Below, piece by piece: positions 5,367 through 21,500 of a stretch of 35,043 nucleotides of DNA (position 1 is its first letter; every line of letters starts with the position of its first letter). The translations under genes and the position numbers were made by a program. Source of the stretch: Actinomycetota bacterium (GTDB lineage Bacteria; Actinomycetota; Acidimicrobiia; IMCC26256; PALSA-555); NCBI GenBank assembly GCA_016870355.1, contig VGBR01000016.1, positions 1 to 35,043 of the forward strand. Reading direction: 5' to 3'. The notes below the pieces were generated by a model. That model made no database searches and had not been told where the DNA came from. It saw only the letters and a program-made list of their open reading frames with translations.

Positions 5367-5732
5367 CTACTCCGCGAGCGGCTTGGCGATGCTCAGCTCG
5401 TGGCCGTCGGGGTCATGGAGGTGGAAGTAGCGCTCGCCCCACGGTGCGTCGCTCGGCGCCATGTCGGGCGTGTAGCCGGCAGTGACCGCGCGCCGATGGG
5501 TGGCGTCGACGTCGTCGACCCAGAAGATGACCCGACCCCAGATCTTCTGGACCGGCGCGTGCGCAGGGTCGAGTTGGAGGTTGAGGAAGCTCTTCGGTCC
5601 GGCTCGGAAGGTGACGAACGAGGATCGCTCGTCGCCGGCGAAGAGCTCGAACCCGAGTGTCCGATAGAACGTGACCGATCGGGCCATGTCGGAGACGGCG
5701 AGCGTGATCGCACTGAGCGACCGGATGGTCAT
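5367..5732 (-). CDS. VOC (glyoxalase/bleomycin-resistance) family protein
   Basis: A 121-residue single VOC unit: the beta-alpha-beta-beta-beta pattern starts at ITLAVSDMARSVTFYRTLGF, and the C-terminal module ends YFHLHDPDGHELSIAKP. The His and Glu of DPDGHELS are the usual metal ligand positions. VOC proteins include glyoxalases, extradiol dioxygenases, isomerases and drug-binding proteins, and the substrate cannot be told from sequence. ATG 5732 starts the domain immediately. A 12-residue longer version from 5768 would add only an Arg/Pro-rich segment. It lies 74 bp upstream of the His-rich membrane protein gene on the same strand, so they may be cotranscribed. Confidence 0.85.
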   Translation of the reverse strand: MTIRSLSAITLAVSDMARSVTFYRTLGFELFAGDERSSFVTFRAGPKSFLNLQLDPAHAPVQKIWGRVIFWVDDVDATHRRAVTAGYTPDMAPSDAPWGERYFHLHDPDGHELSIAKPLAE

Positions 5733-5825
5733 GCCCGGCAGTCTTCGCCGCGCGAACGGCGTTCGCAAAGGCTTCGCGGAGAGACCGGCGGCTACGATCG
5801 TCGCCTCGCGACGTCGGTTGCGAAC

Positions 5826-5900
5826 GGGCGATTGGCTCAGCCTGGTTAGAGCGCCGCTCTCACACAGCGGAGGTCACTGGTTCAAATCCAGTATCGCCCA
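5826..5900 (+). tRNA. tRNA-Val (anticodon CAC)
   Basis: A complete 75-nt cloverleaf. Acceptor stem GGGCGAT (5826-5832) pairs with ATCGCCC (5893-5899). The D-stem is GCTC/GAGC. The anticodon stem CCGCT/AGCGG encloses the loop CTCACAC, giving anticodon CAC, which reads GUG. The T-arm is ACTGG-TTCAAAT-CCAGT and the discriminator is A at 5900. CCA is not encoded (CCC follows). A TACGAT box at 5793-5798 could be its -10. The 3' half shows no direct repeat elsewhere in the window, so no attachment-site duplication is visible, although a degenerate mobile-element patch follows. Confidence 0.95.
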
Positions 5901-6078
5901 CCCTGTTTGCCCAGGTCAGACGGGCTGTTCGGGAGCATCGAAAAAGGCACGTCCTGCGCGTCCCAAAAAAATCCCAAGTTCAACGGGTGGGGCGGCAAGC
6001 AGGTGCACTCGGGTGATGCGCAACTCGCAGGGCTGGTCGCAGCTCGCCTCGGAGTCGAGTTGTTCGACAGCGGGCTGT
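5901..6078. other. Gene-poor stretch after the tRNA
   Basis: No frame here resembles a known protein. It contains an A-run (5940-5946) and a second A-run near 5965. Its position between a tRNA 3' end and a truncated transposase fragment suggests eroded integrated DNA, but no integrase, att repeat or terminal inverted repeat could be found. Confidence 0.4.
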
Positions 6079-6195
6079 TCGCACCGCCTCCGGCGAGATG
6101 TCGAAGTCGGCCGCGATCGTCGCGACCGTCAGATCACCCCGTCGAACGATCCGGACCACATCACGCTTGATCTCCGCAGGAAACTTCTTGGGCAT
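6079..6195 (-). pseudogene. IS3-type transposase OrfA fragment (N-terminal HTH only)
   Basis: From ATG 6195, 39 codons read MPKKFPAEIKRDVV ... RGDLTVATIAADFDISPEAVR, the N-terminal helix-turn-helix of IS3-family OrfA transposases (HTH_Tnp_1), which bind the element ends. A GAGAGG Shine-Dalgarno lies upstream. After EAVR the family's usual continuation (RWxRQADID) is lost, and the frame runs into unrelated Arg-rich sequence that ends at 5980. No OrfB and no terminal inverted repeats are present. This is therefore a relic of an insertion, not an active element. Confidence 0.75.
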
Positions 6196-6207
6196 GGCGA
6201 CATCCTC

Positions 6208-6330
6208 TCCATGGGAAGCGACCTCCCGGTCACCGCACGCGAGCGCGAGGGAGCGCACCATCGGTTCGAAGGACGCTCGGAAGAGGTCGTCGAAGTCATC
6301 ATCACCGGTCCGGTTCGTATTCACCTCCAT
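6208..6330 (-). pseudogene. ECF sigma factor N-terminal fragment (interrupted)
   Basis: Immediately upstream of, and in frame with, the transposase fragment, the first ~40 residues from ATG 6330 (or GTG 6324) include DDDFDDLFRASFEPMVRSLA, then LACGDREVA. This is the start of sigma region 2 in extracytoplasmic-function sigma factors. A GGAGGG Shine-Dalgarno sits 6 nt before the GTG. The next residues should be the EDxVQxAF core-binding helix, but the sequence switches to SHGEDVA and then the IS OrfA. The gene therefore appears broken by the insertion, leaving no sigma domain 2 core or domain 4. The 116 bp to the amidase gene hold nothing recognisable. Confidence 0.5.
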
Positions 6331-6446
6331 CCCTCCAGCAACACGCCGCGGAGGTGCTCGAGGTTTGGCCGCACCGAGAGATCGTGCCCGACGCGCCGGA
6401 CCACCGGCCGTCTGGCGTCAGGAGCCTGTTCGGAGCACACGTATCG

Positions 6447-7925
6447 CTACCGAGATGGCGGACTGCTGACGGGAGCGGTCGCGGAGCTGGGCGGCCACAC
6501 CGGGGCCGCGGACCACGGCGTTGTCACCTCGATCTGACTCGCGACCTGCACGAGGACATCCTCCCGACCAAAGCGCGCCACGAGTTGGACTCCGAGCGGA
6601 AGTCCTGTGGACGGACTGCGGCCCAGTGGCAGAGAGATGGCGGGCTGGCCGGTGACGTTGCTGAACGAAGTGAGTGCCGAGATTGCGCCGGCATTTCGGT
6701 ACATCGATTCGATGTTCGTCGTGTCGAGCACTCCGAGCTCAGGTGGTGGCACGGCGATCGTGGGGGTGAGGAGCAGATCGTGGTGCCCGAAGAACCGGGC
6801 CAGCTCGTGACCGGCGCGCTCGACGGCTTGCAACGCCCGCACCATGTCGGTACCGGTCGTGTTCTTGCCGAGGTGGTAGATGACGTGGGTGAAGGGTTCG
6901 AGATCGTCGTCGCGGAGCCCGCGTCCACGCGCGGCGAGTCGATCGTCGATGTCGGCTGCCATGGGTGTGGACATGACCACCCGCAAGACCGTCTGGAGGT
7001 CGTCGAGCGGATAGGTGGGTGTGGCCTCGACGACTTCGTGCCCGAGCCCTTCGAGCACGCGCGCGGTCGACTCGGTGACGGCGGCGCATTCGGCGTGCAC
7101 GGGTTCGCCTTGGGGCGTGACAGTGCTCAATGCGATTCGGAGACGCCCCGGATCGCTGCCAACTTCGTCGATGAACGGGCGCTCGGGGGCCGGGGCCCAA
7201 TAGCCGTCGCCGGGCACCGAACCCGCGGCTACATCGAGCAGGAGCGCGCTGTCGCGCACGGAGCGAGTCAGCACGTGGTTGACGCTCATGGGGTATGCGA
7301 ACGCACTGAGCGTGGGGTGGCTTGGGGTGCGTCCGCGCGTCGGCTTGAGACCGACGAGCCCGCACGCCGATGCGGGGATGCGGATCGAGCCACCGCCGTC
7401 AGTCCCGTGGCCGAGGGGGACCATGGCGGAGGCGATCGCCGCGGCGGTACCACCCGACGAGCCGCCGGCGGAGTGCGACAACGAGTACGGGTTCCTCGTG
7501 GGACCGTGCAAGAGGGGTTCTGTTGACGCGTTCCGACCGTATTCGGGCACGTTGGTCATGCCCACGACGACAAGCCCCGCGCGTCGGTAGCGCTCGACGA
7601 TGATCGAATCCTGATTCGCGACCTCGTCGGCCCGCAGCCGAGAGCCGCCGGTGGTGCGCATCCCGCTCACTTCGGCGCCGAGGTCTTTGATGACGAACGG
7701 CACACCCGCAAGTGGGCCGCCAGACGCGGTGTCGGCATCGACGAGGGCCGCGTCTGCGCGGACTTCGGTGACCGCGTTGACGATCGGGTTTCGCGCGTCG
7801 ATGCGCGCAAGGGCATGTTCGACGACTTCACGCGCGTGGACATCTCCGACGCGGATGACCGCAGCGAGTGCGACCGCATCGAGGTCGTCGAAGAGCTCGT
7901 CCATCCCGCTACCGGCGTCGCTCAT
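6447..7925 (-). CDS. Amidase (amidase signature family)
   Basis: A 492-residue amidase-signature hydrolase that cleaves amide, and sometimes ester, bonds with a Ser-cisSer-Lys triad. The triad is visible: Lys80 in GVPFVIKDLG, the cis-Ser in HSAGGSSGG (156-157) and nucleophile Ser180 in GTDGGGSIRIPASACG. The length is normal for GatA/nylonase/aryl-acylamidase relatives, but the C-terminal half does not resemble GatA, and no gatB/gatC are present. It is a catabolic amidase of unknown substrate. ATG 7925 overlaps the stop of the tetR gene as ATGA, so it is translationally coupled and is the last gene of the hydrolase-SDR-tetR-amidase operon. The last ~25 residues are low complexity. Confidence 0.92.
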   Translation of the reverse strand: MSDAGSGMDELFDDLDAVALAAVIRVGDVHAREVVEHALARIDARNPIVNAVTEVRADAALVDADTASGGPLAGVPFVIKDLGAEVSGMRTTGGSRLRADEVANQDSIIVERYRRAGLVVVGMTNVPEYGRNASTEPLLHGPTRNPYSLSHSAGGSSGGTAAAIASAMVPLGHGTDGGGSIRIPASACGLVGLKPTRGRTPSHPTLSAFAYPMSVNHVLTRSVRDSALLLDVAAGSVPGDGYWAPAPERPFIDEVGSDPGRLRIALSTVTPQGEPVHAECAAVTESTARVLEGLGHEVVEATPTYPLDDLQTVLRVVMSTPMAADIDDRLAARGRGLRDDDLEPFTHVIYHLGKNTTGTDMVRALQAVERAGHELARFFGHHDLLLTPTIAVPPPELGVLDTTNIESMYRNAGAISALTSFSNVTGQPAISLPLGRSPSTGLPLGVQLVARFGREDVLVQVASQIEVTTPWSAAPVWPPSSATAPVSSPPSR

Positions 7926-8590
7926 CGCGGCACCGACTCGGAGAGCATCGCCGCGTCCGGGTCCACTGTCGACGGGGCCTCGAGCGCGCCACACACGACA
8001 TCGGTGACGTGGGCGACGAACTCGGCGGAGTTCAGCAGCAGTCGATCACCCGCCTCGATCAGCGTCGCCCGTTCTGCGAACAGGCTCGTGAGGAAGAGGG
8101 CGTAGGCCACGAGTCGCTCTCGCCGCACCGCGACGGGGACATCACTCATGCATTGCTCGAGCAGCGACAGCGTGCGGGCCGTTTGGGCGCTCCGGGCCTC
8201 GGGTTGTGCACCGCCGCGCAGGGGGCTGCTCATGAGGTCGATCAGCTGCGGCAGGATCCGAAGGAAGTCTCGGCCGGACTCCGTCTCCAGCTCTCGAGCG
8301 AGAGCCTCGACGTTGGCGGCCACGATGGCTTGTATCGATGGTGAGGATTCGAGCTCGTGGAGTGCGGGTCGGAGGTGCTCGTCCATCGCGGTTTGGTGCG
8401 CCGAAAGGATCGCAACCACGAGGCCATCTCGCGAGCCGAAGTGATAGTGCAACGCGGATGCGTTGCGTTGACCGGCAAGCGCGTTGATCTCCCGTAGGCG
8501 CACCCGGTGGATGCCATGGACGGCGAAGAGGCGCTCACCAGCGCGCAGCAGGCGTTCCTTCGTGGTCTCGGCCTCGCGCGCAGTCACCAT
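7922..8590 (-). CDS. TetR family transcriptional regulator
   Basis: 222 residues. An N-terminal TetR helix-turn-helix (about residues 8-58) reads TTKERLLRAGERLFAVHGIH, with the recognition region ASALHYHFGSRDGLVVAIL (YHFGSRDGL is the family hallmark). It is followed by an all-alpha ligand-binding domain. TetR proteins usually repress neighbouring genes until a ligand binds. It sits inside the minus-strand operon, 4 nt after the SDR gene, and overlaps the amidase gene start by ATGA. The palindromes at 10777-10791 and 17555-17569 are candidate operators; that link is inference. ATG 8590 is chosen; a longer version would overlap the SDR gene. Confidence 0.93.
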   Translation of the reverse strand: MVTAREAETTKERLLRAGERLFAVHGIHRVRLREINALAGQRNASALHYHFGSRDGLVVAILSAHQTAMDEHLRPALHELESSPSIQAIVAANVEALARELETESGRDFLRILPQLIDLMSSPLRGGAQPEARSAQTARTLSLLEQCMSDVPVAVRRERLVAYALFLTSLFAERATLIEAGDRLLLNSAEFVAHVTDVVCGALEAPSTVDPDAAMLSESVPR

Positions 8591-8594
8591 CGGT

Positions 8595-9401
8595 TCAACG
8601 ATATTCAGTGGTGACCCGCGCCAAGGGGGCCGGGAAGTCTTCAGTGCGAAGTTGGGCATCGGTGCCGCCGTCGACGAACACGACCGAGCCACAGAAGAAG
8701 CGCGCGTCGGGTCCGAGGAGGAAGTGCACGACCCCCGCGAGCTCGTCGGCCGTCCCCGATCGGCCGATGGGGACGGGGAACGCGTCGACCAGCGGGCCGA
8801 TCATGGTGTCACGACGGGTCTCGGCGAGCAGGGGAGTGTCCACTTTGCCCGGCGCAACGGCGTTCAAGGTGATGCCGGCACCCGCCCAATCCCTGGTCGG
8901 CGCATGACGTCGGATCCAACGGGCGATCGCGAGCTTCGTCGCCGGATAGGTGAGGACGGAACCCGCGACGTCGCCGGCCGCGCGTGCTGCCGCCTCGTCC
9001 CCGGCGAGACAGTGCTCGACGACGGCCATCGGCACCTCTGGCTGGCAGGTGGTCGAGTTCGAGCTGATTCCCACGGCTGCTGGACGATCGCCCCGCGCCA
9101 GGAGCTCGCGGAGTCCCGCGAGCAGGGTGACAGTCCCGAAGTAGTTCACGGACGTGAGGAGTCCACCCGGCCGATCGGTGAGGCCGGCGACGCCGGCGCA
9201 CGTGACGAGCCCATCGATCGCATCGGTCATCGCGGTGACCTCTGCGATGGCCGCGGCGCGACCGTCGACGGTTCCCAAATCGACGACCACGTCGGCATCG
9301 CGCTGATCGATCCCGATCACCCGCTGCCCGTCAGCCTCCAGGCGCGCGCGGGTCGCCGCGCCCATCCCCGACGCCGAGCCCGTCACGACGACGGTGCGCA
9401 T
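8595..9401 (-). CDS. Short-chain dehydrogenase/reductase (SDR)
   Basis: A 268-residue classical SDR. The NAD(P)-binding motif is TGSASGMG (residues 7-14), with an acidic residue after beta2 (IGIDQRD), which favours NAD(H). Catalytic Ser113/114 and the YxxxK pair Tyr152/Lys156 (TYPATK) are present. The resemblance is to 3-alpha-hydroxysteroid dehydrogenase/carbonyl reductase types, which have the same TGSASGMG start and an enlarged region between Ser and Tyr. It oxidises an alcohol or reduces a ketone; the substrate is unknown. Its start lies 9 bp after the hydrolase stop and its stop 4 bp before tetR, so it is the second gene of a four-gene operon. A KstD-like enzyme nearby fits a steroid-type substrate. 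Confidence 0.92.
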   Translation of the reverse strand: MRTVVVTGSASGMGAATRARLEADGQRVIGIDQRDADVVVDLGTVDGRAAAIAEVTAMTDAIDGLVTCAGVAGLTDRPGGLLTSVNYFGTVTLLAGLRELLARGDRPAAVGISSNSTTCQPEVPMAVVEHCLAGDEAAARAAGDVAGSVLTYPATKLAIARWIRRHAPTRDWAGAGITLNAVAPGKVDTPLLAETRRDTMIGPLVDAFPVPIGRSGTADELAGVVHFLLGPDARFFCGSVVFVDGGTDAQLRTEDFPAPLARVTTEYR

Positions 9402-9410
9402 CGTCGCTCG

Positions 9411-10739
9411 CTACTTCGCGAAGCGGATCTTGACGAGGATGCTCGCCTCGGGGAGCAGCGAGCTGTCGTCATTGACGAAGATCACGCACGGCGGGTTGTC
9501 CGCGTCGCAGATCGCCTTGCCGACCGGCCCCTCGACCACCTCGATCTGAAGCTCACCTTCGCCGGTGGGGTCGGGTTGGAGGATCTTGCCGCGGGCCAGG
9601 TCGCAACCAGCCGTTCCCTCCGAGCGGTCCGGGCTGCACTGCACGACGTTGACGACGCCGCCCGGCGAGAAGCCAGACCAGCGCACGGTCACGAGCTGGC
9701 CACCCTCGAGTCCGCGATCGGGTGAGACCTCGGCCAAGCGATCGAGCTCGGGTCCCTCCTCGATCGGGATCTTGTTCTTGGATCCCTTCTCGGTCGCGTC
9801 CACGAGATCGGTGACGCCCGGAACGGCGTGCTCGGGCAGCCGCGCGAGCGCCTCCTCGTCGTCTTCGAGGAATGCCGCGAAGAAGTCGACCACCGACGCG
9901 ACGACGCTCGGTCCGGCCGGCCCGGACGGGGTGGCCGCCGAACCGTGGCCCCCACCTTCGACGGTGAGGAACGCGCGAGGAGCTCGTGCAGTGTTGAAGA
10001 CGCGCGCGATGTCTTCGTACGGCACGGCGGAGTCTTCCGTGCCGTGGACGACGATGAAGGGTGGCATCTTCTTGAAGTTGTAGTCACCGTCCCCGTACGG
10101 CGACGGCGTACCCGCGAGCACCGCGGCGGCTTTGATGCGCTTGTCTTTGCAGCACTCATGCGAGATCAGACCCATCGTCGTGATCCCACCGTTGGAATGA
10201 CCCGCGACGCCGAACGCCTTCGCGTCGATCAACCCTGCGAGGGGTCCGTCGTCGTCCCGGGAGAGGCCGACGATCTCGTCGTACACGAAGCTCACGTCGG
10301 CGGGCTGGTTCACGACATCTCCAGCATCGGGCGGCGTCTCGTTGCCGCCGCTCGACAGGGGAAACTTCGGTGCTGCGACGACATTTCCAGCGGCGACCAG
10401 CTCCGCGATGAAGTCCTCGTACGTCGCGGGCGTCGCACTGAATCCGTGCGAGAAGACGATGATCGGGTACGGGCCGTGGTCGGTGTCGGGTACCGCATCC
10501 GGCACCGCGGCGCCGCCGGCGCCGAGCGTCGGGTAGAAGATCGACGTCTCGAGCGTGCGTTCGGGCTTCTCGGGAGAGTCGCCGCTCAGGGGAGTCACGC
10601 GGGTGTCGTCGACGAACCTCTCGACGATCACACCGACGCCGTGCGCGGACTGGCCCGCACTCGCTGGTGTCGCTGACACGACTAGGATCGTGAGCGCCAG
10701 CAGGACCGCAATGCCGTGGAACCGACCGCGCGGGCTCAT
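9411..10739 (-). CDS. Secreted alpha/beta hydrolase with C-terminal neocarzinostatin-like domain
   Basis: 442 residues. A Sec signal peptide (residues 1-28) has a probable cleavage after ASA. An alpha/beta-hydrolase domain spans about 35-305: VFSHGF as the oxyanion strand, nucleophile Ser182 in GHSNGG, acid Asp236 in HGTEDSAVP and His265 in GGGHGS. It resembles chlorophyllase/PET-hydrolase-like esterases. Residues ~336-442 match the immunoglobulin-like neocarzinostatin/macromomycin apoprotein fold: VSPDRGLEGGQLVTV, GFSPGG, and two Cys pairs (368/379 and 411/418) spaced as in that family. A secreted esterase that also binds a hydrophobic ligand is a reasonable reading. ATG 10739 has AAAGGA upstream. 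It is the first gene of the operon and diverges from the KstD-like gene. Confidence 0.88.
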   Translation of the reverse strand: MSPRGRFHGIAVLLALTILVVSATPASAGQSAHGVGVIVERFVDDTRVTPLSGDSPEKPERTLETSIFYPTLGAGGAAVPDAVPDTDHGPYPIIVFSHGFSATPATYEDFIAELVAAGNVVAAPKFPLSSGGNETPPDAGDVVNQPADVSFVYDEIVGLSRDDDGPLAGLIDAKAFGVAGHSNGGITTMGLISHECCKDKRIKAAAVLAGTPSPYGDGDYNFKKMPPFIVVHGTEDSAVPYEDIARVFNTARAPRAFLTVEGGGHGSAATPSGPAGPSVVASVVDFFAAFLEDDEEALARLPEHAVPGVTDLVDATEKGSKNKIPIEEGPELDRLAEVSPDRGLEGGQLVTVRWSGFSPGGVVNVVQCSPDRSEGTAGCDLARGKILQPDPTGEGELQIEVVEGPVGKAICDADNPPCVIFVNDDSSLLPEASILVKIRFAK

Positions 10740-10774
10740 CCGTGTCCTTTCGACCTGCCCTGTTGTTGCCCGAC

Positions 10775-10793
10775 GATAATCACAATGATTAGG
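10775..10793 (+). promoter_or_regulatory. -10 box and overlapping palindromic operator of the KstD-like gene
   Basis: GATAAT (10775-10780) is a near-consensus -10 box in very GC-rich DNA. Overlapping it is the perfect inverted repeat TAATCA-CAA-TGATTA (10777-10791), followed by GG. A repressor bound here would cover the start of transcription. The 17-mer TAATCACAATGATTAGG matches 12 of 17 positions with the site at 17553-17569. Expected transcription start is near 10787, which favours ATG 10803 over ATG 10785 for the gene. No good -35 box is seen. Confidence 0.6.
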
Positions 10794-10802
10794 TTGCGTC
10801 GG

Positions 10803-12449
10803 ATGGTCGAGGAGGCGGTCAACGGGGCGAACACCTGGGACCGTGTCGCCGACGTCGTGGTGGTCGGCTCCGGTGGCGCCGCGCTCACCGCGGCGACGCT
10901 CGCGCACGACGCGGGCTCCGAGGTGTTGATCCTCGAGAAGGCCGACTTGCTGGGCGGCACGACCGCGGTGTCGGGCGGCGGCGTGTGGCTGCCCGGCAAC
11001 CACGTCATGGCCGCGGCCGGGATCGAAGATGACCGAGAGGACGCGCTCACGTACATCCGGCGCGTCACCGCGGGAAGTGAGCCCGATCCCGAGCTCCTCG
11101 AAGTGTTCGTCGACACCGCCCCCGAGGTCCTCCGGTATCTCGAGGACCACACGCCACTGCGGACCCACATCTCACCGCTGCCCGACTACTACTGGCCCTG
11201 GGGCATCCCGGGACACCGCGCGGTGCCGGCGCGGTGCGTGGAGGCCGATCCGTACCCGGTTCGCGACGAGCTGCCGGATTGGGCGGACCGGCTCGTCAAG
11301 CGCGGCACGCTCATGTCACTGGGCACTGCCACGACGCTGACCGAGGACCTCACGCCGCAGGCACCGGGGCTGCAGGAAGAGCTGCGGCGTCGGGAGGCGC
11401 AGGACATCCGGCCCAAGGGTGCCGCGTTGGTGGCGCGGCTGTTCCGCGGATTGGTAGATCGAGGCGTCGAGACCATGCTAGAGACTCGGGCGCGCTCGGT
11501 CGTCATCGATGACGCCGGTGACGTCGTGGGTGTGATCGTCGAGCGTGGGGACGAGGAGCTTCGCATCGGTGCTCGGCAAGGAGTCGTGCTCGCATGCGGT
11601 GGCTTCGAATGGAACCGCGAGCTCGTGCGCGCGCACATCGGGTACGACGTGAAGCCGCTGACGCCACCCAACAACGTCGGGGATGGGCTGAGCATGGCGA
11701 TCGAAGCAGGCGCGCAGCTTGCCAACCTGGGCTCATACTGGGGCACCCCGGCGATGTTCGACCCAGAGATCACGCGCGACGGCGAGCTAGTACCCCAGTT
11801 CGAGTGGGGTCGAGGCTCGCCTGCTTCGATCGTCGTCAACCGGCACGGACGACGCTTCGCGAACGAAGCCCTGCCCTACAACGACTTTCCGAAGGCTTTC
11901 GGCACGTACGACCCCAACGCGGTCGACTTCCCGAACGCGGCCCCGGGGTTCTTGATCTTCGACAGCTCGGTCCGCGCGAAGCAGCGCATCCTCTCTCTGC
12001 ATCCCGGTGAGCCGGACGCTGATTGGGTGATGAAGGCTGACACGATCGGCGAGCTCGCCGACGTGACCGGGCTCGAGCGGGCGGCCCTCGAACAGACCGT
12101 CGACCGATACAACGAGCACGCCGCGCAAGGCGCGGACCCCGACTTCCGCCGTCACGAGGTCGGACTCATGTCGCCCGGAAAGCTGGCGCCGATCGTCGAG
12201 CCGCCGTTCTACGCGGTGCAGATCTACCCCGGAACCCTCGGCACGAACGGAGGCCCGCAGATCGACCGGAACGGCCAGGTCCGGCGCCAAGGTGGCGGCC
12301 TCGTCGGGGGTCTCTATGCCGCGGGCAACGCCGCGGCGAACGTGTTCGGCTGGGCCTACCCGAGCGGCGGGGGCACCCTCGGGAACGCCATGGTGTTCGG
12401 GTACCTCGCCGGGCGTCACCTCGGCGCACAACCGCGACGAGACGTCTAA
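10803..12449 (+). CDS. FAD-dependent oxidoreductase, 3-ketosteroid delta1-dehydrogenase (KstD)-like
   Basis: 548 residues. The N-terminal FAD-binding Rossmann motif is VVVGSGGAA (residues 19-27), followed by EKADLLGGTTAVSGGG. The C-terminal FAD segment GLYAAGNAAANVFGWAYPSG and GGTLGNAMVFGYLAG are typical of the KstD/fumarate-reductase flavoprotein family. KstD enzymes introduce a 1,2 double bond in ring A of 3-ketosteroids, and close relatives act on other cyclic ketones. ATG 10803 is preferred because the -10 box at 10775-10780 would start transcription near 10787; ATG 10785 (six codons longer) is the alternative. It diverges from the hydrolase operon and converges, with 22 bp between stops, on the Liv transporter genes. 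Confidence 0.87.
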   Translation: MVEEAVNGANTWDRVADVVVVGSGGAALTAATLAHDAGSEVLILEKADLLGGTTAVSGGGVWLPGNHVMAAAGIEDDREDALTYIRRVTAGSEPDPELLEVFVDTAPEVLRYLEDHTPLRTHISPLPDYYWPWGIPGHRAVPARCVEADPYPVRDELPDWADRLVKRGTLMSLGTATTLTEDLTPQAPGLQEELRRREAQDIRPKGAALVARLFRGLVDRGVETMLETRARSVVIDDAGDVVGVIVERGDEELRIGARQGVVLACGGFEWNRELVRAHIGYDVKPLTPPNNVGDGLSMAIEAGAQLANLGSYWGTPAMFDPEITRDGELVPQFEWGRGSPASIVVNRHGRRFANEALPYNDFPKAFGTYDPNAVDFPNAAPGFLIFDSSVRAKQRILSLHPGEPDADWVMKADTIGELADVTGLERAALEQTVDRYNEHAAQGADPDFRRHEVGLMSPGKLAPIVEPPFYAVQIYPGTLGTNGGPQIDRNGQVRRQGGGLVGGLYAAGNAAANVFGWAYPSGGGTLGNAMVFGYLAGRHLGAQPRRDV

Positions 12450-12471: not shown

Positions 12472-15315
12472 TCAGGCGCGCGACGAGTGATCGACGCCCG
12501 TGTCCGACTCCAACCGTTCATCCGCTGCCAGGCCTGAACGTCGTATCGCACGTTCGTCGGTGCCGAGATACGAGGCAATGACGGCCGGGTTCGCGCGCAC
12601 CTCTGCCGGTGAGCCCTGAGCGATGACCGCGCCGGCCTCGAGGCAGTAGATCCGGTCGCTGATGGACATCACCATCGGCATGTCGTGCTCGATGATGAGC
12701 ACGGCGGAGCCCAGCTCTTGTTGGATCGTCTTGATCAGCGGCCCGAACGCCTCGGTCTCGCGTTGGGCGACGCCGGCCGTCGGCTCGTCGAGCAGCATGA
12801 GGCGCGTGTCGAGCGCGAGGAGCGCACCGAGCTCGACGATGCGGCGAGTGCCGGTCGACAGCTCCGCGACCAGTGTGTCGGCGTAGCGACCGAGACCGAG
12901 GTACGCGATGATCTCGTCGGCTTGCGAACGCTTGTGCCGTTCCACGATCGGCGACGGCGGCAGCGCGAGCATCGAGGGAAGCAGCAACGACCGCTGCCGG
13001 GCCTCGAGCGCGACCATGATCGTCTCGCGCACCGTCAGACCCCCGAAGATGCGAGCGTTCTGAAAGGCGCGTCCCATGCCGTGGCGCGCTCGACGGTGAG
13101 CGGGCATCGCGTCGATCGCGGTTCCGAACACCTCGACGTGTCCGGTGGCGCGCACGAACCCTGAGACCGCGTTCATCAGTGTGGTCTTGCCCGCGCCGTT
13201 GGTACCGATCAGTCCGACCACCTCGCGGGGGCGGACCTCGAGGCTTGCGCCGCCCACTGCAAGCAGCCCGCCGAAGCGGACCTTCACGTCATCGATGCGC
13301 AAGGGCGCGGCCGCGTCGACCTCGGGTCTCGCCGAACGGGTGGAGAGCCGCGCGACGCCGTCGGTGGCACGCCCCGCACGCGGTGTCCACCCTGTGCGCC
13401 GGGCGAGCAGCGCGAGCAGCTGGTGGCGGGCCGAGTCCACGACCGAGACCAGACCGCCGGGGAGGTACAGCAGGAGGATCAGCATGCCGATGCCGCTGCC
13501 GAACAGACGCAGCTGCGGCGTGTCGTTGAACACGATTGGCAGTCCCACGATCACCAGCGTCCCGAGCACCGCGCCGGTCACACTGGACAAGCCACCCACG
13601 ACCGAGACCGCGAGCACGCGGATCGATTCACCCGGAGTGAAGAAGTCGGGGATCATCGTCGAATTGCGCGCCGCGAAGAGCCCCCCGGCGAACGCGGCGA
13701 TTCCACCAGAGACGGCGAACGCCACCAGCTTCATCCGAGTCGGTGACACCGTGTACGCCGCCGCGTTCTGGTCGTTGTCGCGGACGGCCAGCAACGAACG
13801 CCCGATCCCGGTCCTCCGGAGATGACTGACGAGCAGGATCACTCCGAGGAGGCATATGAAGCAGAGGTAGTAGTAGGCCTGCTTGTCGCTCGCGAGATCC
13901 CACTCGCCGATCCCGGGGATCTTGATGATGGGCGGTTCGAGTCGCGACCCGAAGCCGGTGAAGGAGGTGTTGAAGCGCGGTAGGAGGATGACGTAGTTGC
14001 TCACCGCGAGCGCGAATCCGAGCGTGATGATTGCGAGGTAGAGCCCGCGCACGCGCAATGCAGGGATCCCGATGACGACCGCAACGCCAACTCCCCAGAC
14101 GACTCCGAGAGCGATCGAGGGAACGAAGCCGAGTGACTGGCCGTAGTACGCGGTGAAGTAGGCGCCGATCGCCACGAACGCGAACTGGCCGAGCGAGATC
14201 TGGCCGGCCCACCCGGTCAGGATCGTCGCCGAGACTGCCACCATCAGGAAGACGAGGATGTACGCGTACTCGTTCAGTCGGCTGGGTTCGGTCACGAGCT
14301 GCGGAAGCACCAGCCCGAGTGCCAAGAGCGTGGCGACGCTCAGGTAGCGGGTGCCCCGCGCCATCGGGTGTCGAAGCAGCTCGGTGGCGCCCGCCCGTGA
14401 CCTGGGGGCCAAGGACCAGGCGCTCTCGTCGCGTCCTTGGGCGCGGGCGCGCAGCAGGACCAGCACCACGAGCAACACGAACATGACGAGCGTGTCGGTA
14501 CCCGGCGTGCTCGGATTGTTGATCAACACCAGCATCTCGACGACGCCGATGACGACGCCACCAACGAGCGCCAGCGGGAACGACACCATGCCGCCCACGA
14601 GCGCGGCGGCCAACCCGCGCAGGAGCAGGTCGGGGCCGAGCGCGACGGAGACTTCACTGGTGCGCTGGTTGAGCACGGGACCGGCGATGAGTGCGGTGAG
14701 CGCGGCCAGCGCGCCGGCAATCGCCCACACTTGCGTGGAGACTGCCTTGACCCGGATGCCCGACAGGGAAGCATTGGCCGGACGGTCCGCCGCGGTCCGC
14801 ACCGCAAGCCCGAAGCGAGTGCGTTGCAACAAGAAGGCGAGCACGCCAACCAGCGCAGGCACGACGACCAGCACCACGAGATGCTCACCGCGCACACTGA
14901 GGTTGCCGATCGTCCAGATGTTGGTGATCGGGGTCGGGAAGGCGACATCGCGGTCGATGGTCGGGAGCTGGAGCTGGAGGAAGAGCACGACCTGTGACAC
15001 GCCGATCGTCGCGACGAACAACAGCAGGCGGGGCTGGTTGAACAGCCGGCGGACCACGAGCAGCTCGGTGAGCGCGCCGAGCAGCACACCGGTGAAGATG
15101 GCCAGCGGGAAGGTCACGTAGTACGGCAGACCCTCGTTGGCGAACAGCACGGCCATCGCCGACGCGCCGAAGGCGCCGATCTGGCCCTGCGCGAAGTTGA
15201 CGACACCGGACGCTCGAAAGATCAACACGAGGCCCAGCGCGACGAGCCCATAGACCATCCCGCGCACGACTCCGTTGAACACGGCCTGCTCCGTGATCGT
15301 GAACGCGAAGGTCAT
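12472..15315 (-). CDS. LivH-LivM-LivG fusion: ABC transporter permease-permease-ATPase
   Basis: A 947-residue single chain containing what are normally three proteins of a branched-chain-amino-acid-type ABC importer. Residues ~1-300 are a LivH permease (GLVALGLVLIFRASGVVNFAQG). Residues ~330-635 are a LivM permease (GWAGQISLGQFAFVAIGAY). Residues ~680-930 are a LivG ATPase with Walker A GTNGAGKTT (704-712), signature LSTGT (819-823, degenerate relative to LSGGQ), and Walker B LMLLDE. The linker ~636-680 is Arg/Ala-rich. Its ATG overlaps the stop of the upstream MFS-LivF gene (ATGA), so the two are coupled. With the substrate-binding protein at 17612 they give a complete importer. HAAT-family members also carry hydrophobic acids and steroid-like compounds in actinobacteria, so the ligand is open. 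Confidence 0.93.
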   Translation of the reverse strand: MTFAFTITEQAVFNGVVRGMVYGLVALGLVLIFRASGVVNFAQGQIGAFGASAMAVLFANEGLPYYVTFPLAIFTGVLLGALTELLVVRRLFNQPRLLLFVATIGVSQVVLFLQLQLPTIDRDVAFPTPITNIWTIGNLSVRGEHLVVLVVVPALVGVLAFLLQRTRFGLAVRTAADRPANASLSGIRVKAVSTQVWAIAGALAALTALIAGPVLNQRTSEVSVALGPDLLLRGLAAALVGGMVSFPLALVGGVVIGVVEMLVLINNPSTPGTDTLVMFVLLVVLVLLRARAQGRDESAWSLAPRSRAGATELLRHPMARGTRYLSVATLLALGLVLPQLVTEPSRLNEYAYILVFLMVAVSATILTGWAGQISLGQFAFVAIGAYFTAYYGQSLGFVPSIALGVVWGVGVAVVIGIPALRVRGLYLAIITLGFALAVSNYVILLPRFNTSFTGFGSRLEPPIIKIPGIGEWDLASDKQAYYYLCFICLLGVILLVSHLRRTGIGRSLLAVRDNDQNAAAYTVSPTRMKLVAFAVSGGIAAFAGGLFAARNSTMIPDFFTPGESIRVLAVSVVGGLSSVTGAVLGTLVIVGLPIVFNDTPQLRLFGSGIGMLILLLYLPGGLVSVVDSARHQLLALLARRTGWTPRAGRATDGVARLSTRSARPEVDAAAPLRIDDVKVRFGGLLAVGGASLEVRPREVVGLIGTNGAGKTTLMNAVSGFVRATGHVEVFGTAIDAMPAHRRARHGMGRAFQNARIFGGLTVRETIMVALEARQRSLLLPSMLALPPSPIVERHKRSQADEIIAYLGLGRYADTLVAELSTGTRRIVELGALLALDTRLMLLDEPTAGVAQRETEAFGPLIKTIQQELGSAVLIIEHDMPMVMSISDRIYCLEAGAVIAQGSPAEVRANPAVIASYLGTDERAIRRSGLAADERLESDTGVDHSSRA

Positions 15316-17504
15316 GCGCCCTCTCCGGAGAGGAAGACCGCGCGCAGCAGGTCGTCGCGCGCGAGCAGATCCTGCGCGGGGCCTTCGAAGCGGATCCGGC
15401 CACGTTCCATGAACACCGCACGATCCGCGAGGGCGAGTGCCACGTTCACCGACTGCTCGACGAGGATCATCGACATCCCGGCCCGCTTGAGTCCCTCGAC
15501 GACCTCGAGGAGCTCCTGGACGACGAGGGGAGCAAGCCCGAGTGACAGCTCATCGATCAACAGCAGCTCGGGCTCGAGCATCACTGCCTTGGAGATCGCG
15601 AGGATCTGCTGTTGGCCTCCGGAGAGCGACGCCGCACGTGATGCGTGTCGCTCGCGCAGCACCGGGAACATCTCGAGGATCGCGTCGATTCGTTCCGCGC
15701 GGCGGGCTGGGTCCTCGATCAGCCAGCTCCAGACCTCGAGGTTCTCGGCGACCGTCTGATTCGGGAACACGCCTTCGCCACCGGGCACCTGGATCATGCC
15801 CATGGCGACACGGAGCTCGGGGTCGATGAGCGTGATCGTGCGCCCGTTCATCCTGACCACGCCACGGTCGGGAAGCACGAGCCCGCTGATGCAACGCAGG
15901 AGCGTCGACTTGCCCGCGCCATTGGTGCCGAGGAGTGCAAGGACCTCGCCTCGCTGGAGCTCGAGGTTGATGTCGAAGAGGATCTGCACCGGCCCGTACG
16001 ACGTGTCGAGGTTGTGCACCTGCAGCACGGGCACGTGCTCGGGGTCGGCGGCGATGCGCTGCTGCTCGGCTTGCTCGTCGAGGAGCTCTTCGACGACGAG
16101 CGAGATGTCGCGCTTCATGAAGCGCGCGCCGTTGAGCACCATCAGTCCGCCGAGCAGCGCCGCAGGTGGCACCACGACGGCGAGGGCGGTGCGTTCGCCG
16201 TACTCCTCGGCGACGGCAGCGACGATGAGTCCGCCGAAGAAGCCACCCAAGAGGAAGATGTAGAAGCCGATGAGCGCGAAGGCCTGGGCTCTCATCCGAT
16301 AGGGGACCACCGCCGAGATCGTCGGTCCCACCTGCGTGAACGCCGCGAGCTGACATGCGTTCGCGGCGGCGACGAGCACGATGAGCGGTTCGACGGCGTC
16401 GAGCTGGGTGCCCACCGTCAAGAGCACGCCGTAGGCCAGCACCAGCCAGCCGAACAGCCGCACCGCCCATCGGGGGTCACGCCGGAACAGCCGGTCCCCG
16501 TAGCGCCCCGCGATCGGGATGAGCACCAGCGCGGGGAGGAAGGTGAGTGAGAGCACCCAGCCCCGCTTGTAGGCAGAGAAGTCGTAGGTCTCGTCGAAGA
16601 GAAAGCTCAGGCGCACCGGAACGCTCACCAGCGCGAATCCGAGCAAGCCGATGCCGACCACGAGGTACCGGAAGGTCTTCACCTTCTTGAGGCGTGCGCT
16701 TGCCGCGCTGAGTCGGACGGGCGGCTCCGCGGACGAGTCGAGGAGCCGGCCCAGCACTGCTTCCTGCTCGTTTCGGCCGCGCGCTGGCTCACGGAGCACG
16801 AAGAGCGCGACCACGATCGCGAGAGCCGGCAGCGCCGCGGCGACCATCGCCCAGCGCCATCCCTCGAGGCCGCCTGCCCACCCCGCGACCGCGCCCACGA
16901 AGAACGGGCCGACGAAGAGGCCGAGCGGACGGCCGAGGTTCTCGAGCGCGAACATCCGGGCCCGGACGCCGATCGGGTACTGATCGGCGATCAGGGACGG
17001 GGTGATCGGGATGCGCGCCGACGCACCGAATCCGGCGCCAGCGCGCGCGAGGCCCATCTGGAAGCCACTCGCGACCGCAGCTGAGACCAGCATGAAGAGG
17101 ACCCAGATCGACGTCGCTCCCGCCAGGATCCGGGTGCGTCGATAGCGGTCCGCCAGCCACGCGAAGGGGAGTGTGGCGACGACCAGCACCACCCCGCCCA
17201 GTGCCGTGAGTGCCTGCAGTGTGGTCTTGCTCACGTCGAGCGTGCGCTGGATGTCGGGCGCCAGCACCTGCAGCGCAACTTGATCCAAGGTCTCGATCAC
17301 CGCGACCAGCAGCAGCGCCAGGACCATCGCGGCTCCCCCCGCGCGTAGGCCGTCGCGGAACGGCATGGGGACACCCCCGACGCCAGGTAGGAGGTCGTCG
17401 GGGAGGAGCTCGCCAGCTTCTGCTGCCGCCTGCGCGGCGCGGCGGGCCTCCTCCTCGGCCACGACGATCGCGGTCAGCGCCTCGGCTTCGCTCGCATCGC
17501 CCAC
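15312..17504 (-). CDS. MFS transporter fused to a LivF-type ABC ATPase
   Basis: 730 residues from GTG 17504. Residues ~40-460 are a major-facilitator permease of about 12 helices: an LADRYRRTRIL-type loop follows helix 2, and a second half begins near FRYLVVGIGLLGFALV. Residues ~490-725 are a LivF ATPase: Walker A GTNGAGKST (526-534), signature LSGGQ (627-631), Walker B LLLIDE (647-652) followed by LSLGLAP. The ATPase half should dimerise with the LivG half of the next gene, which overlaps it by ATGA. The MFS half is an unexpected partner for an ABC importer. ATG 17567 is an alternative start, but it lies inside the palindrome at 17555-17569 and its N-terminus would read through the hairpin at 17523-17541. 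GTG 17504 has a GGGGGA sequence upstream. Confidence 0.9.
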   Translation of the reverse strand: MGDASEAEALTAIVVAEEEARRAAQAAAEAGELLPDDLLPGVGGVPMPFRDGLRAGGAAMVLALLLVAVIETLDQVALQVLAPDIQRTLDVSKTTLQALTALGGVVLVVATLPFAWLADRYRRTRILAGATSIWVLFMLVSAAVASGFQMGLARAGAGFGASARIPITPSLIADQYPIGVRARMFALENLGRPLGLFVGPFFVGAVAGWAGGLEGWRWAMVAAALPALAIVVALFVLREPARGRNEQEAVLGRLLDSSAEPPVRLSAASARLKKVKTFRYLVVGIGLLGFALVSVPVRLSFLFDETYDFSAYKRGWVLSLTFLPALVLIPIAGRYGDRLFRRDPRWAVRLFGWLVLAYGVLLTVGTQLDAVEPLIVLVAAANACQLAAFTQVGPTISAVVPYRMRAQAFALIGFYIFLLGGFFGGLIVAAVAEEYGERTALAVVVPPAALLGGLMVLNGARFMKRDISLVVEELLDEQAEQQRIAADPEHVPVLQVHNLDTSYGPVQILFDINLELQRGEVLALLGTNGAGKSTLLRCISGLVLPDRGVVRMNGRTITLIDPELRVAMGMIQVPGGEGVFPNQTVAENLEVWSWLIEDPARRAERIDAILEMFPVLRERHASRAASLSGGQQQILAISKAVMLEPELLLIDELSLGLAPLVVQELLEVVEGLKRAGMSMILVEQSVNVALALADRAVFMERGRIRFEGPAQDLLARDDLLRAVFLSGEGA

Positions 17505-17569: not shown

Positions 17570-17611
17570 CGCTGCTCGAGTCCGGGTGAGAGCGTGCAAT
17601 GGGGGGAACTG

Positions 17612-19009
17612 ATGCGAAAAGCATGTGCAGGGTGGGCCGTCGTGGCGGTGCTCGCGATGGCATTCGCGATCCCATCAGGCGCCGCGGTGTCGTCGAAAAA
17701 GGTACCCGGCGTCACAGACAAGCAGATCACGATCGTGGCGCTCGTCGCGGACCTCGACGGTCTGCGCAGCCAGGGCATCGCGCTGCCCGAGAAGCTCACG
17801 ACCGACAACCTGCTCCTGAGGTGGCAGGGGTATGCCGACGCCTACGGCAAGATCAACGGTCGGCGCGTCGTCATCGAACCGGCGGTGTGGAACCCGATCG
17901 ATGCCACGACTTTCGATGAGGCGTGCACGCAAGCCACGCTGGACAACGAGCCGTTCGTCGTGGTGAACGGCAACGGGTATCGCCAGAGCGCGGTGGGCTG
18001 CATCACCGTCGACAACGACACGCCGTTCTTCTTCGGTGAGTCCATCTATCCCGAGCTCACTGAGGCGTCGGGCAACAACCTGGTCAGCCTTGGCTTGTCC
18101 GCCGACGTGAACGCGGCCACGACTGCCGCGATTGCGAAGCAGGCAGAGCTCATCGATCCCGCCGCGAAGATCGCGATCCTCTCCTCCAACGAACCGGGGA
18201 TCAAGGCCGCCGGCGACGCCCTCGAGGCCGAGCTGACGAGCTCCGACTTCGACGTGGTCGAAGTGGTCGAGGTCAACACGCTCCAGGCCGACTCCACAGC
18301 CATCAACCGCGAGTCCGCCGCCGCGGTCGAGACGCTGCGGGCAGCGGGGGCCGACACCGTGATGCTGCTCATCCCGTTCACGGCCAGCGTCGGCTTCTAC
18401 GAGGAGGCCGCACGCAGCAACGCGGGCTTCGACGTCTTCATCGTCGACGCCGCGAGCTCCCTGTGCACGCAGTTCGGTGCGTCGCGCACCCCGGCCGCCG
18501 TGGCTGGAGTTCCGTGTATCACGACGTGGGACGGACGAGCGGTCCCGACGGCGGATGGCGTCGAGGAAGACAGCGAGTTCGAGGCCGAGTGCCGCGAGCA
18601 GTTCGACGAGTTCTCCGAGCAGCAGAGTCAACCCGGTGTGCCGGCGGGGGACATCGAAGCTGGTGGTGTGACCTACACGGAGGATTTCCCGCCGGCGGAG
18701 TGCACGATCATGAGTCTGCTCTTGCCGGCCATCGAGAAGGCCGGGAAGAACGTCACCTGGGACAAGGTCTACAAGAACTTGTTGAAGGTGAAGAAGGGCA
18801 CGGCCGCGTACATGTCGAACGGCGAAGGCGGCTTCGGGAAGACCAAGCCGTTCTACGCCAACCAGGTACACGTCGTCACGTTGAAGATCGCGAACAAGGA
18901 CACGCCCCAGGACGCCAACGGCACGTTCAATGGGTGTCCGGCTCCGGTGAACTGCTGGGTCCCGACCCTGGTCGACGGCGAGGAGTGGTTCCCGGTCGTC
19001 ACCAAGTAG
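17612..19009 (+). CDS. ABC transporter substrate-binding protein (LivK/periplasmic-binding-protein type I)
   Basis: 465 residues. An N-terminal signal peptide is followed by a mature domain opening VPGVTDKQITIVALVADLDG, typical of LivK-like receptors. The two-lobe fold continues through a second-lobe segment where residues AAKIAILSSNEPGIKAAGDA resemble the Leu/Ile/Val-binding family. The chain has several Cys (for example CITVD, CTQFG, CITTWD) but no lipobox Cys, so it is probably secreted rather than a lipoprotein. ATG 17612 follows GGGGGGAACTG, a strong Shine-Dalgarno; an upstream GTG at 17594 would place that sequence inside the gene. It is divergent from the MFS-LivF/LivHMG genes and should deliver the ligand to them. 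A long hairpin terminator follows. Confidence 0.93.
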   Translation: MRKACAGWAVVAVLAMAFAIPSGAAVSSKKVPGVTDKQITIVALVADLDGLRSQGIALPEKLTTDNLLLRWQGYADAYGKINGRRVVIEPAVWNPIDATTFDEACTQATLDNEPFVVVNGNGYRQSAVGCITVDNDTPFFFGESIYPELTEASGNNLVSLGLSADVNAATTAAIAKQAELIDPAAKIAILSSNEPGIKAAGDALEAELTSSDFDVVEVVEVNTLQADSTAINRESAAAVETLRAAGADTVMLLIPFTASVGFYEEAARSNAGFDVFIVDAASSLCTQFGASRTPAAVAGVPCITTWDGRAVPTADGVEEDSEFEAECREQFDEFSEQQSQPGVPAGDIEAGGVTYTEDFPPAECTIMSLLLPAIEKAGKNVTWDKVYKNLLKVKKGTAAYMSNGEGGFGKTKPFYANQVHVVTLKIANKDTPQDANGTFNGCPAPVNCWVPTLVDGEEWFPVVTK

Positions 19010-19577: not shown

Positions 19578-21500
19578 TCAGCCGTGGCAGCTGCCGTTCC
19601 CTGATGACGGTGGCACGTCGAGTGCGGGGTTGCGATCGAAGAAGCCGACGGGGGACAGCAGGAAGCCTGTGTACTCCACGGGCATCACCGGCCAGTCCTC
19701 CGGGCGCACGAAGTGCGTGACGCCGAACGTGTACCAGAGCACCACATCAGTCTCGGTGATCGAGCGGTCGGCCTCGGTCCAGCGGGGGAGACCGTCGCCA
19801 CCTTCGTGCTGGTTCGGGTAGTCGCCCGCGGCACGGCGTTCTTCGCGCACGTAGGGCGTGACCCACAGGTTGTGCTGCGCGAACCCGGCTCGCTTCCCGA
19901 CGCTCGAGTCGGGGTGCGCGAGCAGCGTCGGCGTCGACATCGTGGGGATGAGCTTGTAGCCGACCGGTTGCCCGAGCGAGTTGGGTTGCGATGGATTGAT
20001 GACGCGCCAGCACCGTGACGTCGCGGGGTTGACCTCACGTCGCGCCGCCATCTCACCGTCGAACCGCGTCGCCTTCTGTCGGAACGCGTTCGACCACGGG
20101 TTGTCGGGCCCGGCGTCGACGCGCTCGGCCTCGACTTCATAGACGGAGTTGTTGGTGCCGTCGACGTCGAGATCGAGTCGCGCGCAGAACATGTGCTGGT
20201 GGTTCGGGCCCGCGAGCCCGGGGGCCACGATCGTGGCGAACTCGGGGATCACGCCTTGCTCGATCGCCATGGGCGAGATGATCCCGCTCAGCTTGACCTC
20301 GAGCTGCACGTTCCCGTCGAGGTAGAGGTACCAGTAGAAGCCGTACTCGTAGTTCCCGACGGTCGCGATCGAGCTGATGACGAGCCGGCGTGACCGGCGC
20401 GTCTCGTTCGTGCCGCCTTGAAGGTCGTGGTGCTTCCAGAGAATCCCGTAGTCCTCTTCGTGCATGCATATCGCCTGCTCGACAACGTACGGATCGCCGG
20501 CTTCGGTCGCGAGCACCACGTCGAAGTAGTGGATGACACCCAGGCAGTCGCATCCGAGCTTGAGGGAGTTCGCCATGCGGCCGAGTCCCCACTCACCCGC
20601 GTCGAACGCGTTCTTCCAGCCGTGCATCGCGCCCGGGTCGCCGTATGGCACGACCATCTCGCTGATCGACGCGCGGTGCAGCACCGAACGCGTCCGCCCA
20701 TCGTCGTCGTACGCGAGCGTGTGCAGCACCAGGCCCTCGTACGGGTCGAAGCCGACGCGGAACGACCACTTCTGCCACTGCACCAAGTTGCCGTCCACGG
20801 TGAACGACGGACCCTCGGGTTGGGAGATCTCGAGCGGCTTGAGGTCGGTGCGCATCGGCCCGACGTCCTCGGGCAGGTACGAGCCGCGGTTCGGTGGCAA
20901 CGGCGTGATGCCGAGGTCGAGCACCTCGAGCACCTCGCCGGCACCTTGGTCGTAGAAGGCGATGACGCCTTCGATCGGTCGGGCGTAGCCGTTGTCGGTC
21001 TGGGACTCGCGCACGAACGAGATGCACCGGCTGATCCGGCGACCTTCTTCGTGCGGGCTCCCGAAGCTGCCGGCGGGCCACGGGTCGATCTGCACGAGGT
21101 CGAGATCGGTGATGCCGCGGCGCGCCATCGCCGCTTGCCAATCGGGATGGGCGCGCACCTTGCCGATCGCATTGCCCGACTCGCCGAACAGCAACGTGGG
21201 GCGCATCCCTTCGACGACCTGCCAGTCGCGCACTTCGCCCGCGGTGAGCGACACGATCACCTCGATCACTTCGAGGCCGGGACCGGTGACGAGCTGGACC
21301 TCAATCTCGCGGTCGACGGTCACGCCAGCGGTGTGAGCGGCGACCACGTCCTTGGGCGGCTCGTGCAGACGGACGTGAACGAACACCGCGTCTTCGGGCA
21401 CCTTGCCGCTCGCCCGGGCGATCGCGACGGCGCGCGTGACCTCCTCGGGTGTCAACAGGTCGAGCGGGTGGGTTGCGACTCCGGTTCCGATGCTGGTCAC
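19578..21500 (-). CDS. Copper amine oxidase (primary-amine oxidase)
   Basis: A 640-residue copper/topaquinone amine oxidase, which oxidises primary amines to aldehydes, releasing ammonia and hydrogen peroxide. The cofactor-forming motif TVGNYEY has its topaquinone-precursor Tyr at 384. Copper ligands are His434 and His436 (NHQHMF) and His596 (GVTHFVRPEDWPVMP). The catalytic-base Asp300 (NAFDAGEWG) is also present. Length and spacing match the Arthrobacter globiformis phenylethylamine oxidase (TPQ382, His431/433/592, Asp298), so all key residues are intact. There is no signal peptide, so it is cytoplasmic. The GTG start at 21500 has no Shine-Dalgarno but has TAGAGT 6 nt upstream, suggesting a leaderless message. 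A phenylethylamine/tyramine-type substrate is likely but unproven. Confidence 0.96.
   Translation of the reverse strand: MTSIGTGVATHPLDLLTPEEVTRAVAIARASGKVPEDAVFVHVRLHEPPKDVVAAHTAGVTVDREIEVQLVTGPGLEVIEVIVSLTAGEVRDWQVVEGMRPTLLFGESGNAIGKVRAHPDWQAAMARRGITDLDLVQIDPWPAGSFGSPHEEGRRISRCISFVRESQTDNGYARPIEGVIAFYDQGAGEVLEVLDLGITPLPPNRGSYLPEDVGPMRTDLKPLEISQPEGPSFTVDGNLVQWQKWSFRVGFDPYEGLVLHTLAYDDDGRTRSVLHRASISEMVVPYGDPGAMHGWKNAFDAGEWGLGRMANSLKLGCDCLGVIHYFDVVLATEAGDPYVVEQAICMHEEDYGILWKHHDLQGGTNETRRSRRLVISSIATVGNYEYGFYWYLYLDGNVQLEVKLSGIISPMAIEQGVIPEFATIVAPGLAGPNHQHMFCARLDLDVDGTNNSVYEVEAERVDAGPDNPWSNAFRQKATRFDGEMAARREVNPATSRCWRVINPSQPNSLGQPVGYKLIPTMSTPTLLAHPDSSVGKRAGFAQHNLWVTPYVREERRAAGDYPNQHEGGDGLPRWTEADRSITETDVVLWYTFGVTHFVRPEDWPVMPVEYTGFLLSPVGFFDRNPALDVPPSSGNGSCHG

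Follow-up and report, generated by a model that had tools for sequence, protein, structure and literature searches.

A single gene in the 35,043-nt stretch of Acidimicrobiia DNA analysed here (hereafter the window) encodes a Spinster-like carrier of the major facilitator superfamily (MFS) continuous with a LivF-type ABC ATPase, and it sits beside genes for the remaining parts of a LIV-type importer. The same join recurs in roughly one-quarter of the related bacteria sampled. We are highly confident of the anatomical description, in which a LIV importer has its LivF subunit built onto a Spinster-like MFS carrier. The locus contains the following features, in window coordinates:

15312–17504, minus strand: MFS–LivF fusion gene, 730 aa, with a GTG start at 17504 and a TGA stop at 15314–15312
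17334–17504, minus strand: N-terminal cytoplasmic helix (residues 3–30) and conserved PDDLLPGVG stretch, from the structure model and family consensus
16107–17333, minus strand: Spinster-like MFS domain with 12 TM helices (residues 58–466), from Pfam, structure and conservation
16035–16106, minus strand: acidic connector in which TM12 is predicted to extend as one helix (residues 437–486) into the ATPase, from the model and conservation
15312–16034, minus strand: LivF-type ABC ATPase (residues 491–730), from profile and PDB searches
15903–15929, minus strand: Walker A, GTNGAGKST, from the translation
15612–15626, minus strand: ABC signature, LSGGQ, from the translation
15549–15563, minus strand: Walker B, LLIDE, from the translation
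12472–15315, minus strand: LivH–LivM–LivG fusion, 947 aa, comprising two permease halves and the other ATPase half, from the ORF, Pfam and NCBIfam
17612–19009, plus strand: divergent substrate-binding protein (SBP), Peripla_BP_6, start at 17594 or 17612, from profile search

The initial annotation described one open frame running from an MFS domain into an ABC ATPase with intact motifs and overlapping a LivHMG gene by ATGA. Closer analysis bears this out: no stop or frameshift lies between the domains in the sequence, Pfam places MFS_1 (E = 1.1e-32) ahead of ABC_tran (E = 2.8e-28) in one chain, Walker A, the LSGGQ signature and Walker B are all intact, and the LivHMG ATG (15315–15313) shares bases with the TGA of the fusion. 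The annotated gene boundaries also stand. The stop-to-stop frame permits an alternative upstream ATG at 17675 that would give 787 aa, but GTG at 17504 is the best start because the starts of relatives sit about 10–15 residues ahead of the conserved 'ALTAVVVAEEEAR' and because a GGGGGGA purine stretch lies upstream of this GTG. No conserved internal start of the ATPase was found: the sole ATG just 5′ of the junction encodes M463, and 22 of the 62 aligned rows have Met at this position.

The source is a draft assembly of 31 contigs, and two genes could in principle have been merged through an assembly or frameshift error. Against this, dozens of independent assemblies, single-contig genomes among them (G002, G003, G110 and G190), have the same frame open, the connector between the domains is conserved, and GC3 is flat over the junction (0.88, 0.92 and 0.85). 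Chance or misassembly is excluded because, by our count of the listed matches, at least 77 of the 296 class genomes sampled match both domains at full length, some of them single-contig, and because the MFS half bears the mark of purifying selection; we give an artefact practically no weight. The one relative in which the gene looked naturally split (L081, in genome G032) is explained by a scaffold gap of 10 Ns.

The two-domain frame recurs at 32–79% identity in dozens of genomes. In the 296-genome sample of the class, 91 genomes match at E ≤ 1e-60; in a phylum sample of 396 genomes, 21 match, 19 of them across both domains. Coverage beyond Actinomycetota consisted of one scan of GTDB contigs and a plasmid collection, and the contig scan returned 18 relatives at 58–83% identity, of which nearly all span the full length and almost all come from Acidimicrobiia MAGs. 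By these sequence comparisons, the fusion is an old, recurrent architecture and not a one-off. On a 5.7-Mb linear Embleya plasmid, a 43% identical copy (L083, NZ_CP108785.1 4149403–4151385) lies with a LivHMG partner, which suggests horizontal transfer because Embleya is far from Acidimicrobiia. A record labelled as a Bifidobacterium breve MAG (L024, CAMDCC010000201.1) holds an Acidimicrobiia-type locus, 73–75% identical, and is probably mislabelled or contaminated.

Fusion loci follow two layouts. In type A, which includes the window, MFS–LivF precedes LivH–LivM(–LivG); in type B, LivH–LivM is followed by MFS–LivF–LivG. A same-strand LivH/LivM partner lies within 2.5 kb in 76 of the 80 loci, and the other four are accounted for by a contig end (L048), nested frames or a 2.9-kb spacing. 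Nearly all type-A loci have a possible partner start −4 to +9 nt from the fusion stop. Throughout the loci examined, the MFS domain is joined to LivF and never directly to LivG, LivH or LivM. The LivH–LivM–LivG triple fusion is the usual partner in the closest relatives (L024–L041). The source genome itself also carries a diverged paralogue of the whole system (L076 7240–13848; C2:259323–261509; 39% identity) with LivHM, LivG and the SBP as separate genes, and one genome, G079, bears at least seven MFS–LivF systems of both layouts (L057, L072 and L115–L119).

In quick trees with long branches, all LivFs of fusion systems fall into one supported clade (99), apart from ordinary LivFs encoded in the same genome, and the MFS domains of types A and B group with two solo proteins (98). 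The same LivF clade also holds MFS-free LivF–LivG systems and single-chain LivH–M–F–G systems. Our reading of these trees is that the simplest history would be one old fusion, later reshuffled, with several losses of the MFS domain; the fusion may instead have been gained twice. A second independent fusion in G051 (L121), hinted at by a quick tree, was unsupported, as a single clade was not rejected (AU p = 0.47). Because MFS-free sister systems exist, the MFS domain is accessory to the ABC unit and not required for its cycle. Single-chain LivH–LivM–LivF–LivG proteins, encoded in stop-free frames of about 1250–1515 aa without an MFS domain, occur in several families of the class (L131 at 5643–9608, L133, L139, L140, L141, L143 and L144). 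Free-standing MFS genes without LivF lie inside or adjoining the fused clade (L120 5918–7783 and L109 8526–10028); they are possible fissions or a possible source lineage.

The ABC parts look, from their sequences, like an ordinary LIV importer. A LivF-type NBD with its motifs is encoded together with LivH/LivM (BPD_transp_2), LivG and a Peripla_BP protein, the combination that marks LIV/HAAT importers, and most of the longer loci from relatives also have a relative of the SBP close to the cluster. The ATPase half is closest to the UrtE and LivF models of NCBIfam, below their equivalog cut-offs. Between the divergent fusion and SBP genes, the single operator-palindrome pattern tried gave no match. 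LivF members of the family carry LSGGQ or LSGGE and a VEQ switch, and LivG members carry LSTGT/S and an EHD switch. Given the established geometry of ABC dimers, in which the two halves pair, LivF of chain 1 would dimerise with LivG of chain 2, presenting its consensus LSGGQ to the LivG site, where the switch histidine lies, and itself facing the divergent LSTGT of LivG. One of the two sites would thus combine the histidine with a consensus signature (nucleotide at LivG, signature from LivF), and the other would be divergent. From this asymmetry of motifs, LivF is expected to serve LivHM in the usual manner. The proposal of the initial annotation that the LivF half is the second NBD of the LivHMG transporter is likewise upheld, by inference from gene context.

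The MFS half has the 12 TM helices, the MFS_1 profile and the motif A expected of the superfamily; it missed the curated cut-off of TIGR00893 (ACS/D-galactonate transporter), scoring 72 bits against 395. Its best solved relatives by sequence (phmmer) are SPNS1 (9boi, E = 2.5e-15) and HnSpns (6e8j, E = 2e-8). A Foldseek search with the MFS model returned SPNS/Spinster entries in all of the top 16 places, led by SPNS2 and SPNS1, and in VIA-align the SPNS rows reached Z scores of 39–41 over about 395–410 residues, with SotB level at 40.4. The proton switch of HnSpns is Glu129 in TM4 (PMC9440201). At this position the window protein has Ala and the fusion family A, K, Q or R; where HnSpns has Asp41 and Arg122, the window protein has Asp and Arg. 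Because the Glu129 switch is lacking, we describe the MFS half on sequence grounds as Spinster-like and do not place it in the Spinster family (2.A.1.49). A non-acidic residue here is no mark of fusion, since the free-standing relatives of the class mostly have Q; with the TM4 Glu missing from most of the nearest free-standing relatives as well, the idea that proton coupling was lost at fusion was rejected.

Residues of the alternating-access gate are conserved within the MFS half. R123, R405, D466, P240 and P401 are invariant among 62 aligned fusion rows of both layouts, and D119 and R120 (which form motif A with R123), D174 and R181 are kept in at least 90% of them. The TM1 acid E/D71 is retained in 38 of 43 type-A and 17 of 19 type-B members. 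Pairwise dN/dS is 0.01–0.24 for the MFS half against 0.01–0.19 for LivF, so that, by this measure, the MFS half is under purifying selection. These data bear on the possibility that the MFS domain is an anchor or scaffold that tethers LivF at the membrane, or adds a packing surface for LivH/LivM, with no conformational role. LivF alone is soluble and the fusion would fix its stoichiometry, other subunits of these operons are fused too, and TM9 and TM10 are variable. Yet the gating charges and TM1 acid are kept despite identity down to about 32%, purifying selection on the MFS half almost equals that on LivF in the closest pairs, and one helix would suffice as a tether where twelve are found. 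Of the three roles that the initial annotation had offered for the MFS part, an extra channel, a sensor or a membrane anchor, an inert anchor is made less likely by the conserved gating residues, and we judge it improbable.

A role as sensor or regulator is better placed, although we still consider it unlikely. Here the MFS domain would bind a ligand or sense membrane potential and set LivF activity through TM12, moving no substrate itself, and would resemble a transceptor or a trans-inhibition domain built into the protein. Within the MFS half of type-A proteins, conservation peaks in the connector, which scores 2.59 against 1.40–2.04 for the TM helices and is predicted to be rigid. The attachment always to LivF and the accessory character of the MFS domain fit this role, as do two residues that may restrict gating and are specific to the fusion: R314, found in 61 of 62 fused proteins, and an acid at D84, found in 40 of 43 type-A and 11 of 19 type-B members, each absent from all eight free relatives. 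Regulatory domains fused to transporters are also common, as in MetNI and ModBC (PMC10710835). Against it, a pure sensor would have no need of the full alternating-access gate, which is conserved here, and free-standing relatives have the TM1 acid too.

Structure prediction of the 730-residue chain with AlphaFold2, using 62 family members, gave a pLDDT of 87.5 and a pTM of 0.82, with both domains folded and a rigid helical junction between them. TM12 is predicted as a continuous 50-residue helix (437–486) that ends eight residues before the first ATPase strand. The MFS part modelled alone reached a pLDDT of 92.7 and a pTM of 0.90; by our estimate, domains unplaced relative to each other would give a pTM nearer 0.56 (457/730 × 0.90) than the 0.82 obtained, and the model thus predicts that MFS and LivF are stiffly joined through the TM12 helix. 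A whole-chain search of the PDB gave matches dominated by the ATPase, with no solved chain bearing both domains among the matches listed, and a viral structure library gave separate ABC or MFS matches, with no two-domain chain among those listed.

We propose that the SBP, the LivH/LivM translocation path and the LivF/LivG ATPase pair would together form a LIV-type importer, with the ATPase pair driving LivHM as usual. The MFS domain, retaining its alternating-access gate and tied stiffly to LivF by the extended TM12 helix, would provide a second permease route, changing conformation in coordination with the ATPase cycle; it might carry the same organic substrate as the importer, a related one, or the product of that substrate. 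We favour a second permease that still changes conformation because the cytoplasmic gating charges and the TM1 acid have been retained and the join to the ATPase is predicted to be rigid. Against an active second permease are the non-acidic Glu129 position and the RxxxG arginine R154, retained in just 26 of 43 type-A members. That the chains assemble into one complex, that the MFS domain is competent for transport and that it is coupled to the ABC unit are points we infer, and the proposal as a whole, including the coordinated second permease, is put forward tentatively, as somewhat short of an even chance.

The predicted junction also admits other forms of coupling. In a true hybrid, the MFS cycle and the ABC ATP cycle would be mechanically coupled through one continuous helix. 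Either ATP consumption would gate or power the MFS domain, or the MFS domain, through its ligand and proton state, would gate the ABC importer. We know of no characterised precedent for mechanical coupling of this kind, and taken jointly these two forms seem to us doubtful. In a further reading, the shared LivF/LivG pair would mechanically power both the MFS domain and LivHM, and the secondary carrier would become a primary pump. TM12 is modelled as coupled directly and rigidly to the NBD and the Spinster proton switch position is non-acidic, as such a pump might have it; but a single NBD is attached, LivH and LivM already form a TMD pair, and no precedent is known to us. We regard an ATP-driven MFS carrier as highly improbable. 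The coordinated second permease remains our preferred reading.

Neighbouring genes offer a weak hint of the substrate. The window also encodes a copper amine oxidase, an amidase, a flavin amine oxidase fragment and an FAD-binding reductase. Of these, the copper amine oxidase alone recurs, being present in two longer loci of distant relatives (window 19578–21500; L029 from 1; L030 1142–3043), and it faintly points to amine substrates. A steroid/cholate lead (CamABCD and CamM of Rhodococcus) was dropped, as the review concerned reports just separate ABC and MFS systems for uptake of cholate metabolites. A gene at 9411–11168 of the window encodes a predicted hydrolase (chlorophyllase/PAF-AH-like) whose C terminus bears a neocarzinostatin-family domain.

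Primary and secondary transporters tend to be treated as separate machines. The recurrent join, always beside the rest of an importer, therefore points to two transporter types built as one machine, and there is a real chance that the fusion represents a new transport coupling. A conserved join in two layouts, under purifying selection, amounts to a natural experiment on the coupling of two cycles, and the question can be addressed directly in one protein. For annotation, such genes are likely to be labelled 'MFS' or 'ABC ATPase' alone and so miscounted in transporter inventories of Acidimicrobiia.

The literature consulted, in which a survey of MFS fusions is represented by a citing paper alone, yielded no description of an MFS protein joined to a Liv ATPase. 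As that survey (Willson et al. 2019) is cited in PMC10710835, MFS proteins with C-terminal fused domains (CBS, CNBD, PAS and UspA) are a known class; the present protein resembles them in bearing an extra cytoplasmic domain at the MFS C terminus and, going by that account, differs in being joined to a functional subunit of a different, primary transporter instead of a small regulatory domain. MetNI and ModBC carry an extra domain on the importer NBD that is able to control the importer (PMC10710835), but theirs is small, soluble and C-terminal, whereas here it is an N-terminal 12-helix carrier. The MFS half is like SPNS1, SPNS2 and HnSpns in motif A, in the TM4–5 Asp and Arg, and in sequence and fold, yet it is only 17–20% identical to them, has no acid at the Glu129 position and bears a C-terminal ABC ATPase. 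With LIV-I (LivKHMGF) the system shares a Peripla_BP_6 SBP, BPD_transp_2 permeases LivH and LivM, the LivG and LivF ATPases and the grouping of their genes; in contrast to LIV-I, LivH, LivM and LivG here form one chain and LivF carries an MFS carrier.
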